This document shows positions 53,886-63,556 of a stretch of 64,000 nt of DNA, one piece after another (the stretch's first letter is position 1; each line of letters begins with the position of its first letter). The DNA is taken from assembly GCF_037975245.1 (NCBI RefSeq), contig NC_092561.1, positions 15,037,001 through 15,101,000 of the forward strand, read 5' to 3'. The position numbers and the translations under genes are program-made. The stretch is from Apostichopus japonicus (taxonomy: Eukaryota > Echinodermata > Holothuroidea > Aspidochirotida > Stichopodidae). Below the pieces are notes generated by a model that saw only the letters and a program-made list of their open reading frames with translations, was not told where the DNA came from and did no database searches.

Positions 53886-56800
53886 CTGTAAGACGATCGT
53901 TATGTATGTTATACGAAACTCATCGATATCGAAAATTCACTTTTGGATTAAAAAACAAAATCGTATACGTATCAAGACCGACATAGATAGATATATAAAC
54001 AAATATATATAAATATTTTAGATCTATTACTATTAAATCTATATGTTCTATTGTAAATGACTTGATTTAGAGTGCAATGGCAATATGCGGAGCTGGTGTC
54101 AATCACTGTTCATTGAATTTCAAAGGGTCATCCAAAATAGTGTGTGATACTTTCATTATCTTATGTGAATCAGTTCATGCATGATTGAGGGCGTACTCAA
54201 GATAGCGTGACCAAGTTTAGAAAAACAAGTTATATGTTATTATTGGAACAATATATTCTATATCTTTTTAACAAGGAGACTACATTAACATAATTTTCCC
54301 AGCAAGAGTCACATCATATTTCAACCAAAATAACTATTCCATATAGATGTTGGGTAACTAAAAATGTTTGCAGGACAGAGAGTGTCTTTGCTCCTATGAT
54401 ATATCATGTCCTTGGCAAATGGGCAACTACAATAACATGTGATGTCAGAAATATTAAGGGAAGCAATGTTTTCAGTTTTTAGTATAGGAACTTTAATATT
54501 GCAGATGCTGGCTTTGAATATGTTGACTATTTTACTTCAAAGTTTAGACCTTTCCCCAAATTTCTACAACCATATTGGCGATTTTAAATTCTCCTTAAAA
54601 TGTCAAATGTTTTATGTCAAAATCATGTTTATGGACTGTAATCTTTTTGTTTCTCGAAATCTTCACATATTCATTGAACATTGTGCATAATTGGTTCTTT
54701 ATTAAAGAATTTACATATTTTGAAACATTTGTTTATCAGTTCTGAAAATTCCATAGCAATGCATTTGCCATAAAAACCGGTGTAGCACTTGTAAGCTACA
54801 GCACTCAACTGATCACAATATTTTCATTTCCATCTATATTACATGTCTAGGGATAACCCACCCTCCCCACCTCACACCTCAGTTACCTAGGTGTTGGTGC
54901 TGGTAGGAAAGAAATTGCTCACCTAAATTGTTAAAATGGATATAATGCAATAGAAGTTTATCTTTTGGAGGAGCATAGAATATCATGCTGATATAAAACA
55001 ATGCAATATATATATCAAACGCCTACATTTCAAAGCTAAAATTTCATACGAAGGTCGTAGGCCTACCTTTAATTTTGCTAGCACCTTCTCTACGTCATCA
55101 GGTAATTCGCTATTCAAAACCCAGACAAATGCATGGACACCAGTTGACCACTCGCTCTTTATTTCTTTTGTAGCTACTTTGCTTCGTTTTGTTCCATCGA
55201 GGAAACCCGGCGTATCATACACAATCATAGTTTCCTTCTTTTCACTCAAGACTGTGGAACGTCCCTCCTTTATTTTCTGTGTTGCTCCATCAGAACCACT
55301 GCTAACGTCGAAAAGATCTTGACCCGTTAGGTAATTACCAACTGAAGATTTCCCATGGCCAACTTTGCCAATAAGTAGAATAACTTTCTTTCCATCTTTA
55401 CCCGTAACTGTGTGTTTCTTCATGATGAGTCTACCAATAGCATCCTTTGCTTCTGAAAGAACCTGCAATAATTGACAAGTAAACTTTAAGTTATTAATTG
55501 ATAGACAGATAGATGGATCAAAGGATGGATGGATAGATTGCTGAGCGGATTGATGGATTGATAGATAAATTAATAGATAATAATCAGTACTCACTGCACA
55601 TGATTTCACCTCTCCAAGATACGCCTGGAGCGTTGATAGTTCCCCCACGTCTTTACCAACTTCTTTCGTATTTTTCAAGTCTTCCCTGAATTTTTTTAGT
55701 AGTAAGTTGTAATCTTCCACAGCCTTTATGGGACTTATTCCCACAAAGTCCTTCTTGACGTGGAATTGATTTTCTATTTTGGTAAATGCAGAACGTAAAG
55801 CCTGGATGCTACCTAGTTGCGACTGGAACATTCTTCTGAATTCCAAATCAAGACCTGCTGAACTCATTAATAAATCGATTGTCTTCTTTGCCCCTTCTAC
55901 GTCAAGTGATAACTGTTCAAATTCTCTTTGGCTAAACTCAAAATATGGTTTAAGCTTCACTCCAGGCAAAGGTTGGAAATGAAACTAAATCAGAAAACAG
56001 GGAGAACGAAAATACTGCAATGGTTATTGGAATAAGAGTGATTAAGTTGGTTCATTCCAAAAAATAAAAATAAAAATAGTATTCTTGTATATATTAACAA
56101 ATAGTCATCTTTTGGAGGATAAACGTTTGTTACCGAACTGCAAATATTACAATAAATTACCAAATTATTATTTCCCCTCGAAGACGGATATAGTCATTTG
56201 ATTTGAAGTTGGCCATTTTAGAGAATATGTTCTGTGAAACGTAGTGAGATGGCTTGTTAAAGTTTCGTGGTTAATAAAAAGTTAACAAAAGTCACGAACT
56301 CTTACCGAAATAGGAGTCAAATCAGTTTCCTCATTTTTGTATGTGGAAATAAAACTATTAACAATGTCCTTTTCCTCTGAGAAGACGTTTATGGGTATCG
56401 AGGAAATAATGTGATGACTTAGCTGACTTTCAGTTGATTTATAGTGGTTGTTCGTTGATGCACTTAATCCTGCTTTTCGACCCATGAAAGAAATGCCACT
56501 TTCTATAATATGTTTCGCCCTGAAGTAATTGAAAAATAACCAAAAACAAAATATGGGTTTAGTGACTTCTATCTCATCCGCACATTTATGCCTAAAACCA
56601 CACTTCTTGTAATACACGACCTATACTAACGAGCGGTTTCATCTTTTGATCATAACGTGTTTGTTGTCTTTGTTCATTTACCTATTCTTTTCATACAGGA
56701 AATACATTGCAAATGCATTGAACAGATTATGAAAATATTTAATTGTCATGAGCAGCTGCCAGTATATCAGTTGTCAGTAATACACAAGATAGACCACAAT

Positions 56801-58739: not shown

Positions 58740-60270
58740 ACCATGCCAATGACTTGAATCGAAATGAATGTCTAGGAACCTGTCAACACTTTTCCCCTTC
58801 CCTTCTGATCGTGGGCACAGCTTTGTAAGATTAACGGGCCAGTTGCTACAGAGAAAGACTTCCAAAGCGAATGTGTTATCTGTACGGTGTCAAAGTTACA
58901 TACTGTGAACCAACACAGTGAAAATGCTGTGGTAGAACGTAACTGCATAAGAATCTAATCATCACTCTGTCTGTCTCTCCATTTCTCTCACTCTCCCTCT
59001 CTGTCATTTAATTTAAATGTTCGCCAGCGATTCACATCCTATGTTAATGTTTGTACATTTTCTCTCGTATAAGGCCGGGATTGATGACCGCAATAATCCC
59101 CATTCCATGAAAGTGGTATACCTTGTCCATTAGGTGTGCTAACATAATGGTCAACATTCTTAGATACTAACCGGACAACACGAAGTCAAATCATTCATTC
59201 AAACCGGAAGAATTATATTTCGCCAACAAATTGAAGATTGACGAGACAAAAAACTGTCCCAAATCCAATTTACCACTCAAAAGTCCGGAGAGTGACACAT
59301 TCACAGTGACACAAAATGAGCAGGGCAATCAGACGTAGTATGGGAAGGAACAAACCATTCCTCCAGCATTTCTGCATACTTGATAATTGAAGATTTAATA
59401 ATGGTATATGTTCCTGATCATTTTCCTTCAATCATACAAATACAATTCAATAGAACCTGAAATGATTGTGAAAATATATACTTTACAAGAAACTGATGAA
59501 GATCCCCTATGATACAAGTCACAGGCAAATGACTATGCTCGAAATGGTATACACAAGGTTTCGTACATGTTTTGAGGTTGCCTTCATGTAGTAGAGTAAC
59601 GTCTATTTTGGGACACACTACCATATATATTCTGGCGACTGTAAGTTGTAGCCAACATTCTATACGACTTGAAATGGTCCGCAATGATGAGCCCCTGTTG
59701 TTCGCCAAACGGGACGTTAGGCATGTTACGATTGTGTGCTATATAACTGCATTAAGGTAAGGTTAGGCCAAGACCTATCCATTAGCGCCGTTGAACGATC
59801 CGATTATGAAACAACAATGCTCGACCACCTTGGTGACTAAATGTTCATACCTGACATCATGAGTTAATCAACTGTCTTGAAATCGCATCGTTAAAAACTT
59901 AGAACTATTCAAAAGATGGCTAATTCATTAGTCCGTTCGGAAATTTAGTCAGTCACATAGGCACATGGTTGCTACTTTAAAACAGTACAGGCCTAATGTT
60001 AGGCTATTAGTAAGGGGAACAAAGTACCACGCAATGGTAGCGTCGTTATGGGCAAGGCAGGTTTCTTTCACCTGTTCTACAACTTTGGAAACTTCAATTT
60101 ATTGACGTCTGCAGTTGAGTACGTTTAACTTTGGCAATCATGTTACACATGTCTACCGTAGCCGGAAATTGAATACGAAAGTGAAAACTTTTCAGCACAA
60201 ATTCACTATTTACGCACCATAGATTTATGTCGATATTTGGAATGCCAATTTACACGCTTTAACACACCAG
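58740..60270. other. Intergenic, no gene seen
   Basis: No recognisable domains on either strand. A 50-codon open stretch on the minus strand near 58880-58740 is not assignable. Confidence 0.45.
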
Positions 60271-60280
60271 TAGAATCACT

Positions 60281-60333
60281 GTGGTCGAGTGGTACGGACT
60301 TCGTGACACGAAGATCCGGGGTTCGATTCCTAC
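60281..60333 (+). mobile_element. tRNA-like head (A and B boxes) of a SINE/retrozyme-like element
   Basis: GTGGTCGAGTGGTAC gives an A-box-like D arm. An anticodon-arm-like hairpin follows (ACTTC, loop GTGACAC, GAAG), then GGTTCGATTCC, a strong B box. There is no proper acceptor stem, so it is not a working tRNA gene. It runs directly into the hammerhead motif, suggesting an RNA polymerase III promoter for that RNA. Confidence 0.7.
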
Positions 60334-60375
60334 CTTCGCCTGATGAGTCCCAAAAGGACGAAACCGGTCGTGAAG
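60334..60375 (+). ncRNA. Hammerhead ribozyme (type I, minimal helix III)
   Basis: All invariant core parts are present in order. Helix I 5' strand CUUCGC (60334-60339); CUGAUGA (60340-60346); helix II GUCC and GGAC with loop CAAAA (60347-60359); GAAA (60360-60363, its last A being the first base of helix III); helix III AC-CG-GU (60363-60368); cleavage base C at 60369; helix I 3' strand GUGAAG (60370-60375), which pairs with CUUCGC over six pairs including one G-U. Predicted cleavage is after 60369. Helix III is too short for a stable hairpin, but ACCGGU is self-complementary, so two molecules can form a continuous six-pair helix, as known for dimeric hammerheads. Location downstream of a tRNA-like promoter fits animal retrozymes. 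Activity is inferred. Confidence 0.88.
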
Positions 60376-60395
60376 TGGACTTTTTCTGGTGTGTT

Positions 60396-60401
<6 letters not shown>

Positions 60402-60461
<60 letters not shown>
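60402..60461. repeat. (TA)n microsatellite
   Basis: About 30 TA repeats between the hammerhead element and the 3' end of the Tx1/L1-like element. Confidence 0.95.
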
Positions 60462-60465
<4 letters not shown>

Positions 60466-60576
60466 AGTATATCTATTACATGGAACACTACTATTCGAGT
60501 ACATGTGCAAGTATATAGCAAAATAAAAAGGGTAAAGGAAACGGAATCGATAGGCTTAATTGAATAAATCAGGACA

Positions 60577-61979: not shown

Positions 61980-63556
61980 TCATTTCCATTGCAAGTAAAG
62001 AACACTGATACCTAATAACTTTACGGGCCCAAGAGTGAATCTGATGTTAAACTCCTGAATAAAGGTCGGACAATGGGAGGCAAGCCGACCTAGCGGGAAA
62101 AGACTCGATTTGGTTAAGTTAATTGTTAATCCGGAAGCTAGTCTCAGTTGATTAAGAATATTCAATGCCTCCTTTAAAGATGTTCTTCTATTATCGAGAA
62201 TAAGAGTTGTGTCATCTGCGTATTGCATGATCCTGACTTCCTTATTATTAATTTTGATCCCTCTTATAAAGTGGTTATTTTGAATTTTTAATGCACAAAC
62301 TCCCGCTGCAAGAATAAATAAATAAGGACTTAGCGGGCATCCCTGCCTTACTCCTCTCTCAAGCGAAAAAAAAAAGCCAGCGGAAAAACTGTTGTTACAT
62401 ACACAAGCAGTAGTATTTTTGTAAAAAACATTCACCCACTTTTTAAAACTGGTACGGTACCAAAATTGAAAAAGGATAGTGTATTATTTATAAAGTCCCA
62501 CTCAAGCTAATCGAAAGCTTTTTTTGAAATCTATCATGAATATAAAGCCAGGAATATCTCGCTCTGCCGGCGTAGTCTTTTAAATCTAAAACAAATCTTA
62601 TGTTTTCACCGATAAATCTGTCTTTTAAAAAAACAGTTTGATGAGGGCCAATAAGAGATTGAATTACAGTTTTCAGCCTGGTGGCAATAGCTTTAGCACC
62701 GATCTTATAGTCAGTGTTCAATAAAGTAATAGGGTGATAATTCTGCAGGGACATGGGGTCTTTCGTAGGTTTCAGGATGAGAGTGATAATAGCCCTCGAT
62801 TGCTCAGTGGAAAAACTACCATTATCAAATCCATGATTAACAGACTCTAAAAACTAATTCACCGATTGAATCCCAGAACTTGTTATAAAAAATTGGCCGT
62901 AAGACCATCGCTACCTGGCGCTTTGTCGTTTTTCAACGCTTCGAGGGCTTGGGTGCATTCATCTACAGAAAGCCTACCCTCACACGCCAATAAATTATCA
63001 ACATCTACTTTGGGATATGATAAGTCAGTAAAAAAAGGATATGGAATGCAACCATTTGAACTATAAAGGCTTTGGTAAAAGGTCCGAATCTCGCAAAGAA
63101 CTTCCTCCTTATTAGAAGTAACATCACCCTTCTTCGTCTTCGTCTTCGTTACCGGTGACACATCCGCAAAAAGGGACAATAACTCACCACACACACGTCA
63201 AGAGAGTAATTAGTTAGTTACATCTGACACACGTACTGATATGAGTGACAGGATTCAAAATCCTTCGAATTTTTAAGTTTGTAAATTGAATTTAAAGTCT
63301 TATTACTCTTCTCTAAATTTAAAACATATTGTGTGTTCTTTTCCCCCTCCTCAACCCATCTAGCACGTGACCTGATAATTGTACCCTGCAGTTTATAATT
63401 GTAACGGAGAAGAAGATCGTTTTGGGCTGCTTTAAGCTTTTTACGTAACTCAGCGCTATCATGTTGATACAAAACTTGCTCTAGCTTAGCAACCTTATTT
63501 ACCAGCTCAGACTCTTTACTACGACGCTCCCTTGCTATATCTTTTGAGTATTTCAT
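61980..63556 (-). pseudogene. Linker and reverse transcriptase of the Tx1/L1-like element
   Basis: In successive shifted frames: ARWVEEGEKNTQYVLNLEKS (63556-63218), LEALKNDKAPGSDGLTANFL (ending at 62883), LQNYHPITLLNTDYKIGAKA and PHQTVFLKDRFIGENI (62754-62488), and RGVRQGCPLSPYLFILAAG, then MQYADDTTLILD with the YADD catalytic pair (62435-61980). These are the standard ordered RT motifs. At least three frame changes separate them. Confidence 0.88.

Follow-up and report, generated by a model that had tools for sequence, protein, structure and literature searches.

A retrozyme-like hammerhead repeat of the sea cucumber Apostichopus japonicus and its likeness to Penelope-like elements

What kind of element places a complete hammerhead motif, with a helix III that pairs with itself, in the genome of a sea cucumber, and what would transcribe and move it? 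We analyzed a 64-kb stretch of Apostichopus japonicus DNA (hereafter, the window) in which an initial annotation, made from the letters, had proposed a complete hammerhead ribozyme, a retrozyme-like setting and action of the RNA as a dimer. Our reading, to which we give a probability of roughly 0.6, is that the repeat is a retrozyme-type SINE mobilised by Penelope-like elements (PLE), 5'-truncated in the window, with Pol III boxes, dimer cleavage and Penelope-like insertion at (TA)n. The repeat looks Penelope-mobilised because its box/ribozyme head goes together with fixed 3' ends at (TA)n and with matching ends in the PLEs of the same genome. The initial annotation had not noted that a box A/box B head is fused to the ribozyme, nor did it describe the inverted repeat, the target at (TA)n, the fixed 3' ends or the PLE likeness; the promoter-ribozyme overlap and the PLE-like insertion anatomy we infer from DNA.

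Table 1. Features of the repeat copy in the window, and the hammerhead-like half of PLE loci. A1 is an alignment of 59 of the 61 loci passing a pattern of both inverted-repeat arms (L028 and L042 left out).
Feature	Position	Strand	Basis or remark
Repeat copy, 5'-truncated single partial unit, with (TA)n flank	60244..60476	+	similarity to family copies runs from about GCCAATTT to TTATTC
5' arm TAACACACCAG of 11-bp perfect inverted repeat	60260..60270	+	pairs with 60386-60396 in RNA folds
Box A-like TGGTCGAGTGG	60282..60292	+	fits TRGYNNARNNG
Box B-like GGTTCGATTCC	60320..60330	+	its final six bases (60325-60330) form helix I's outer 5' strand
Type I hammerhead motif	60334..60375	+	RF00163; predicted cleavage after C60369
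Helix I strands CTTCGC and GTGAAG	60334-60339 with 60370-60375	+	letter check
Core CTGATGA	60340-60346	+	letter check
Helix II, GTCC/GGAC, loop CAAAA		+	letter check
Core GAA	60360-60362	+	letter check
Helix III ACCGGT, self-complementary	60363-60368	+	letter check; two-copy cofold
Outer helix I 3' strand	60377..60382	+	most A1 rows read GGAATT, the window copy GGACTT with one pair lost
TTTTT, candidate Pol III terminator	60381..60385	+	only T4+ run in 60260-60476
3' arm CTGGTGTGTTA of inverted repeat	60386..60396	+	letter check
(TA)n microsatellite at insertion 3' end	60400..60476	+	putative target and priming site
GGGTTTATACCCGAAACGTC in PLE loci	about 1909 in the locus; 2359 in L065	coding orientation	

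The window also holds features of other kinds. On its minus strand lie a reverse transcriptase fragment (RVT_1; 61980-62435), probably a LINE remnant, and an AIG1/GIMAP-like GTPase frame (54983-55969), which matches a single protein at E <=1e-3, one of A. japonicus. Between 35182 and 42617 a 42-bp repeat (AAAGAGCCGTCAAATTTCT...GATGGCCC) forms long arrays, both direct and inverted.

The hammerhead motif and its folding

Across the 64-kb window, Rfam gives a single match at gathering level, to RF00163, and it covers the motif from end to end (38.8 bits against a gathering score of 34; E 2.8e-6). This score, together with a letter check that found every core letter, bears out the claim of a complete hammerhead. 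Helices I and II are intact as had been described, with all positions paired, one of them (G60338-T60371) as a wobble, and ACCGGT is indeed its own complement. As C17 falls at 60369, cleavage is predicted after this base, the same site that had been named earlier, and RNA of the window copy is predicted, on sequence grounds, to cleave itself. A match above gathering, a conserved core and an open helix I place the motif in type I, and its 30-nt core occurs 0 times across 100 dinucleotide shuffles.

In the family, helix I extends outward beyond an internal loop through GATTCC/GGAATT, as seen in an alignment to RF02275 and in the fold of the family copy L081. Both the loop and the outer helix are present in L081 by alignment and by fold; they are weakened in the window copy, where one outer pair is lost (C at 60380). 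RF02275 (Hammerhead_HH9) has its setting in an intron of human RECK, and L081 aligns to it over the extended helix I with 40 bits (E 4.5e-9), below the gathering score of 52. Because of this extended, RF02275-like helix I with its internal loop, the window family is not of the minimal PLE hammerhead type.

Can such a hammerhead fold by itself? In silico, single copies do not form it: the hammerhead is absent from the minimum-energy fold of 60255-60400 (window copy plus flanks), and in the best single-copy folds the active core is not formed and partly pairs with helix III letters. The minimum-energy fold of L081 contains the outer helix I (z -3.91), and there it is the core CUG that pairs with helix III letters. 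Forcing a one-pair helix III on a monomer costs 5.5 kcal/mol. Two copies, on the other hand, cofold as a double hammerhead through the shared 6-bp helix III, and this is the best two-copy structure both for the family sequence (-38.9 versus -34.8 for two monomers) and for the window copy (-33.7 versus -29.6). The earlier suggestion that the RNA acts as a dimer agrees with these models and appears plausible. Helix III reads ACCGGT in 40 of 56 hammerhead-selected copies (59 loci less 3 identical rows), is another palindrome in 2 (ACGCGT, ATCGAT) and is non-palindromic in 14; compensatory palindromes were dropped as evidence for helix III, 2 of 56 being too few. The dimer reading is not new, since such action is already known for short-helix-III hammerheads of the axolotl and of PLEs; small PLE-associated hammerheads reportedly cleave as dimers (Lunse et al. 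2017). For axolotl hammerheads, a weak helix III and dimer action are described in the available text of PMC7229834.

A repeat family with box-like sequences beside the ribozyme

Searches of the A. japonicus genome covered 671,581,487 bases. RF00163 has at least 59 matches there at E <=1e-3, 50 of them over the cut-off (74 of 66,307 candidates scored), and all 59 loci were fetched; the covariance model, proposed in the initial annotation as a check over window and genome, finds the hammerhead in both. Nor does the core drop out of the genome-wide consensus, which would have spoken against a ribozyme: the 30-nt family hammerhead, with up to 3 mismatches, occurs at 567 places (277 forward and 290 reverse), and its reversed control at 0. 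A DNA search with window 60240-60400 (40 of 1,123 candidates scored) yields 39 long non-self matches that are 93-95% identical. The repeat was mobile recently, since the same 165-nt sequence stands unchanged in L081 (contig C23), L082 (C17) and L084 (C10). Most of the family loci were chosen by similarity or hammerhead score.

At tandem loci, successive hammerheads are 341 and 326 nt apart in L016, 341 nt in L084 and L105, and 349 nt in L092. The unit, counted from cleavage site to cleavage site, is 341 nt long with a GC of 0.416, and its longest Met frame has 73 codons. Non-coding tandem units in the range of about 150-450 bp, each with one type I hammerhead and a GC below 50 percent, characterize metazoan non-LTR retrozymes (PMC7229834), and the retrozyme-like reading of the initial annotation stands; in the window only part of a single unit is present, truncated at its 5' end.

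How well is the catalytic core kept? All 12 core letters tested are preserved in 14 of 15 copies chosen by unit body with a complete hammerhead required upstream (15 of the 18 fetched run-through stretches; L234, L245 and L250 left out), and in 25 of 27 copies chosen by likeness to window 60240-60400, hammerhead included (L080, L087 and L088 left out). Core differences number 2/180 versus 36/901 elsewhere in the body-picked copies (one-sided p 0.034) and 2/324 versus 20/1808 in the similarity-picked ones (p 0.33), data that are compatible with constraint on the core but weak.

Upstream of the ribozyme lie two box-like strings. We take TRGYNNARNNG to be the box A consensus, which TGGTCGAGTGG fits, and GGTTCGATTCC presumably fits the Pol III box B consensus. 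A box A match alone is unremarkable, as the window contains 42 such strings with 52 expected, and box B-like strings with up to 1 mismatch number 1 against 1.5 expected. The distance between the boxes is 38 nt in the window copy and 43 in L081, a tRNA-gene-like spacing, and the order of box A, box B and hammerhead, their spacing and their adjacency to the ribozyme recur in family copies, the A1 rows behind this recurrence being selected for both inverted-repeat arms. L004, L033 and L057 are cut short within the box region or behind it. Box A and box B at tRNA-like spacing, judged by these consensus sequences, are what is seen in tRNA-type SINEs. A true tRNA gene is ruled out by two negative results: ARAGORN reports 0 tRNA genes for the window and for each of the 5 family loci on which it was run, and L081 1450-1720 shows no tRNA fold by RF00005 up to E 10. 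With ARAGORN and the Rfam tRNA model both negative, the "tRNA-like" character of the head rests on the box letters and their spacing.

What appears to be new is that box A/B-like sequences abut the ribozyme and that the 3' half of box B is at the same time the outer strand of helix I. As GATTCC is this half, the same six bases would be promoter in DNA and ribozyme in RNA. TTTTT, the unit's only T4+ run, starts 12 nt past the cleavage site, and there is no T4+ run from box A to the ribozyme. Judging by the boxes, the repeat may be transcribed by Pol III. In the fold of L081, the inverted repeat closes a three-way junction around the box-region hairpin and the hammerhead arm.

Viral contigs were scanned for box B plus CTGANGAG, which gave at least 120 stretches; the helix II test was passed by 2 of 120 among the matches listed, and we suppose that many of the other viral stretches are tRNA genes. 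One viral contig, L128 (IMGVR_UViG_3300001605_000031), has 11 tRNA matches in 1.8 kb, with a hammerhead-like motif directly 3' of one tRNA (1359-1480, by descriptor) and a sub-threshold RF00163 match at 1634-1687 (26 bits versus gathering 34).

Insertion ends of the repeat and of Penelope-like elements

Where do the insertions end? On a ruler given by the 341-nt unit, with position 0 as the first base after cleavage, we counted end points in 79 of 89 fetched family loci, leaving out as duplicates or parts of the same arrays L024 (the window, present again as L080), L006, L016, L017, L019, L034, L044, L055, L087 and L088. Among these 79 non-redundant loci the 3' end lies at position 49 in 41, within 44-54 in 48, within 72-90 in 20 and elsewhere in 11. 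The exact base is ambiguous by a few nucleotides, because the unit reads TATATAT there and then runs into (TA)n. The right flank is strongly TA in 56/79 loci; the window has only one other (TA)8+ tract. An inverted segment adjoins the repeat at 30/79 loci; the outer end of this segment falls within 44-57 in 8 loci, within 72-90 in 10 and elsewhere in 12. A further new feature is thus where most insertions end: about 49 or 75-86 nt from the cleavage site on its 3' side, as a rule at (TA)n and often head-to-head.

The 5' ends, by contrast with these fixed 3' ends, are scattered. Neither the mapped family segments nor the places found in a unit-body DNA search (40 scored of 1,159 first-look candidates) show a sharp 5'-end peak at the cleavage site. 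Among 116 mapped segments, 9 cross a second cleavage junction; ends at a distance of 3 nt or less from it number 0. In the body search, 28/40 places run past the upstream junction into the hammerhead, the 18 fetched ones by at least 11 nt and the other 10 as judged from loci fetched earlier. As for the remainder, L246 reaches about 7 nt into the hammerhead (by eye), the 5' ends of 9 are spread over +1 to +12 (L238 at +1) and L089 starts at +56; C16:44989328 is left out of the tally, and the places are partly dependent, L234 and L104 sharing a junction and several lying in one stretch of C1.

From the end positions, the inverted segments and the run-through, reverse transcription seems to begin at two internal sites, on either (TA)n strand, and to cross the cleavage junction. 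The run-through at the junction and the lack of a sharp 5'-end peak suggest a template that is uncleaved or recircularised, and because TTTTT precedes the insertion 3' end, the templates must be read-through RNA. Private variants are shared by tandem units within L039, L103 and L105, which is suggestive of a circular template, but units also differ from one another within L084, L039 and L018. A short insertion in L101, at about position 1867 (reoriented), begins no more than about 2 nt from the cleavage site and has a private base in common with its neighbour; no other locus is as clear a candidate for reverse transcription that ran off a cleaved end.

The genome also contains PLEs with which these ends can be compared. 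A GIY-YIG search gave 37 matches, of which the best 20 were fetched, and 14 of these 20 loci (L062, L065-L067, L069-L078) carry GGGTTTATACCCGAAACGTC or close variants. We take its GGG..CCC, GAAAC and GTC to be the 3' half of a PLE hammerhead motif; this reading as a hammerhead-like half is ours, and PLE end distances are counted from it. Rfam does not report the half, and CUGANGA is absent beside GGGTTTATACCCGAAACGTC in 14/14 loci. This absence suggests that the half may be kept for something other than cleavage. Pfam was run on three frames: that of L069 matches GIY-YIG over the cut-off (26.9 bits) and RVT_1 just below it (29.0 bits, cut-off 29.6, E 1.1e-6), that of L061 matches GIY-YIG only, and that of L073 has no match. 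A search for a PLE with a complete hammerhead returned none in the 20 GIY-YIG loci (Rfam E <=0.5; descriptor), and the full PLE-type pattern has 2 matches in the genome versus 1 in the control. These two (G000:C8:3433782-3433811 and 3474589-3474618, minus strand) are identical and possibly a duplicated locus of another PLE family.

Measured from the corresponding cleavage position, 12 of the 14 half-bearing loci meet (TA)n, 8 at +45 to +59 and 4 at +81 to +83, the longer form having an extra tail of about 31 nt. It thus appears, again as a new feature, that GIY-YIG PLEs end 45-59 or 81-83 nt 3' of the hammerhead-like half, at (TA)n. In L067, L069, L070 and L071 an inverted 3' end beside (TA)n lies upstream in the same locus, L070 and L071 being possibly duplicates of one locus. 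The repeat (+49 and about +75-86) and the PLEs (+50 and +81) agree in their target, in having two end sites at comparable distances, in the optional tail and in the inverted products. Their match is architectural, as the sequences are not significantly alike: a shared 3' sequence was rejected when 117/1000 and 51/1000 shuffles scored as high. Nor is the repeat a PLE, though it behaves like one, since its unit has no long frame and so encodes none of the reverse transcriptase, canonically with GIY-YIG, that defines a PLE.

Comparable insertion has been described for the PLE protein PAc. In the available text of PMC11167929, PAc has two internal starts of reverse transcription that bound a 30-40-bp tail, cuts and extends both strands at AT-rich sites, and uses unprocessed RNA as its main substrate; reverse transcription starts 111-118 nt into the frame and the hammerhead cut is at 26, which by subtraction of these figures puts 85-92 nt between cut and start. 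The repeat has the same PLE-type anatomy of two 3' start sites about 30-40 nt apart, an AT-rich target and both strands. The RNA sites at which PAc starts have no homology to the cut DNA (PMC11167929, same part), which does not hold for the repeat, whose main start zone is TATATAT and whose target is (TA)n; simple annealing to (TA)n could explain the start at +43 to +49. Hammerhead mutants of PAc are reported there to insert normally in vitro.

A proposed life cycle, its rivals and its relatives

We propose that the window copy is a non-autonomous retroelement of A. japonicus, a retrozyme-type SINE of units of about 341 nt, cut to a partial unit. Its internal A/B boxes would recruit Pol III, and some transcripts would pass TTTTT into further units. 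The hammerhead, whose own helix III is too short, would cleave best when two copies, in neighbouring units or in two RNAs, are paired through ACCGGT, as the in-silico cofolds favour. RNA with an intact or religated cleavage junction would then, to go by the insertion anatomy, be taken up by a Penelope-like RT/GIY-YIG protein, which would open (TA)n DNA, often on both strands. Reverse transcription would begin 3' of the cleavage site, at one of the two internal sites that lie about 49 or 75-86 nt from it, and would leave variably 5'-truncated, sometimes tandem or head-to-head copies ending at (TA)n. More tentatively, and at somewhat less than even odds, we suggest that retrozymes of this kind are the SINEs of PLEs, that the hammerhead and its fixed spacer to two reverse transcription starts form the module that the PLE protein reads, that box B has merged with helix I, and that autonomous PLE copies, as seen in this genome, have no catalytic strand whereas the ribozyme of their parasite has stayed complete.

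Two rivals concern who moves the repeat and who transcribes it. A LINE that prefers (TA)n might move a SINE of this kind, in which case the PLE likeness would reflect that both prime UA-rich RNA on TA-rich DNA, and the inverted copies would come from L1-like twin priming. A reverse transcriptase fragment does lie nearby (61980-62435, minus strand), outer ends fall outside both start zones in 12/30 inverted segments, as twin priming would give, no significant 3' sequence is held in common with the PLEs, and the TATATAT start resembles the target, unlike that of PAc (PMC11167929, available text). However, both elements have two starts about 30-37 nt apart at matching distances, outer ends lie in the same zones in 18/30 inverted segments, and the PAc paper has both features for a PLE (PMC11167929, as above), and we regard a LINE as an unlikely mover. 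Somewhat easier to entertain, though still rather doubtful, is a promoterless retrozyme whose A/B boxes are incidental and which is transcribed by read-through from promoters in its neighbourhood. Retrozymes of plants and metazoans seem to have no promoters (PMC7761336, available text), the tRNA covariance model is negative, neither box is commoner than chance in the window, and insertions reach beyond TTTTT; yet the tRNA-gene-like spacing (38 nt here, 43 in L081), the way the boxes adjoin the ribozyme in family copies and the absence of a T4+ run between box A and ribozyme all favour a Pol III promoter.

The ribozyme itself might be a relic that has lost cleavage and is kept as a structural or recognition element, as the PLE hammerhead-like half may be. 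Such a relic would agree with the normal insertion of PAc hammerhead mutants in vitro (PMC11167929, available text), with PLE copies here that have no 5' core strand, with the missing 5'-end peak at the cleavage site and with single copies that do not fold into an active core. We nonetheless judge it improbable, as the core is intact in 39/42 copies not picked by hammerhead score, identical 165-nt copies on C23, C17 and C10 imply recent activity, and the double hammerhead is the best modelled cofold. The element might also be taken for a DNA-transposon-like MITE whose limits are the 11-bp inverted repeat and whose passenger is the hammerhead; in favour are the perfection of the inverted repeat (60260-60270/60386-60396) and its outermost bases, TA on both sides. 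We rule this reading out and give it next to no credence: family similarity extends beyond both arms, most insertion ends lie elsewhere, the units stand in tandem, and the inverted repeat is, in the models, the closing stem of an RNA fold.

The PLE-mobilised SINE-retrozyme that we prefer has relatives among described elements. Dimer-cleaving PLE hammerheads (Lunse et al. 2017, by title) reportedly share with it the very short helix III and the dimer mode. Metazoan non-LTR retrozymes of coral, mussel and axolotl, as described in the available text of PMC7229834, likewise have a type I hammerhead, no long frame, a GC below 50 percent and tandem units of a few hundred nucleotides, together with a weak helix III suited to dimers (axolotl) and coexistence with PLEs. 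They differ in that they seem promoterless (PMC7761336, available text), whereas the sea cucumber repeat has box A/B-like sequences in its ribozyme arm and seems tied to PLEs by the (TA)n target and fixed 3' ends. The union of SINE and hammerhead has a precedent in Sm-alpha of Schistosoma, a SINE that carries a hammerhead as well as a part resembling tRNA-Gln (PMC2770079, available text). Sm-alpha resembles the repeat as a SINE-like element with a tRNA-related region and a type I hammerhead (PMC2770079, PMC8490949, available text), but it belongs to another phylum and differs in sequence (as judged without alignment), Sm-alpha-like copies are predicted tRNA-Gln genes whereas the sea cucumber head is not recognised as tRNA, and in the sea cucumber box B and helix I share letters. 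PAc of Anolis offers the other half of the comparison, a hammerhead followed by two reverse transcription starts that bound an optional 30-40-nt tail, with AT-rich targets, both strands and tandem copies; PLEs encode RT and GIY-YIG, whereas the repeat encodes no such protein, and PAc starts are unlike the cut DNA, whereas the repeat's TATATAT is like its target (PMC11167929, available text). In the open-licence PMC literature, so far as its text was available, we found no description of this sea cucumber repeat family or of a retrozyme with an internal Pol III promoter.

Two questions about animal retrozymes have been left unsettled in the literature: which machinery mobilises them and what drives their transcription. 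According to the available text of a 2020 review, retrozymes show no motif that reveals an autonomous partner (PMC7761336), and a 2020 primary paper, in its available text, names PLEs as a strong candidate for moving them (PMC7229834). The PLE-like anatomy of the sea cucumber repeat supports this published conjecture, and the repeat offers both an element-partner pair in one genome and a candidate promoter. A single purified protein, one RNA and a (TA)n DNA target would now be enough to put both questions to the test.
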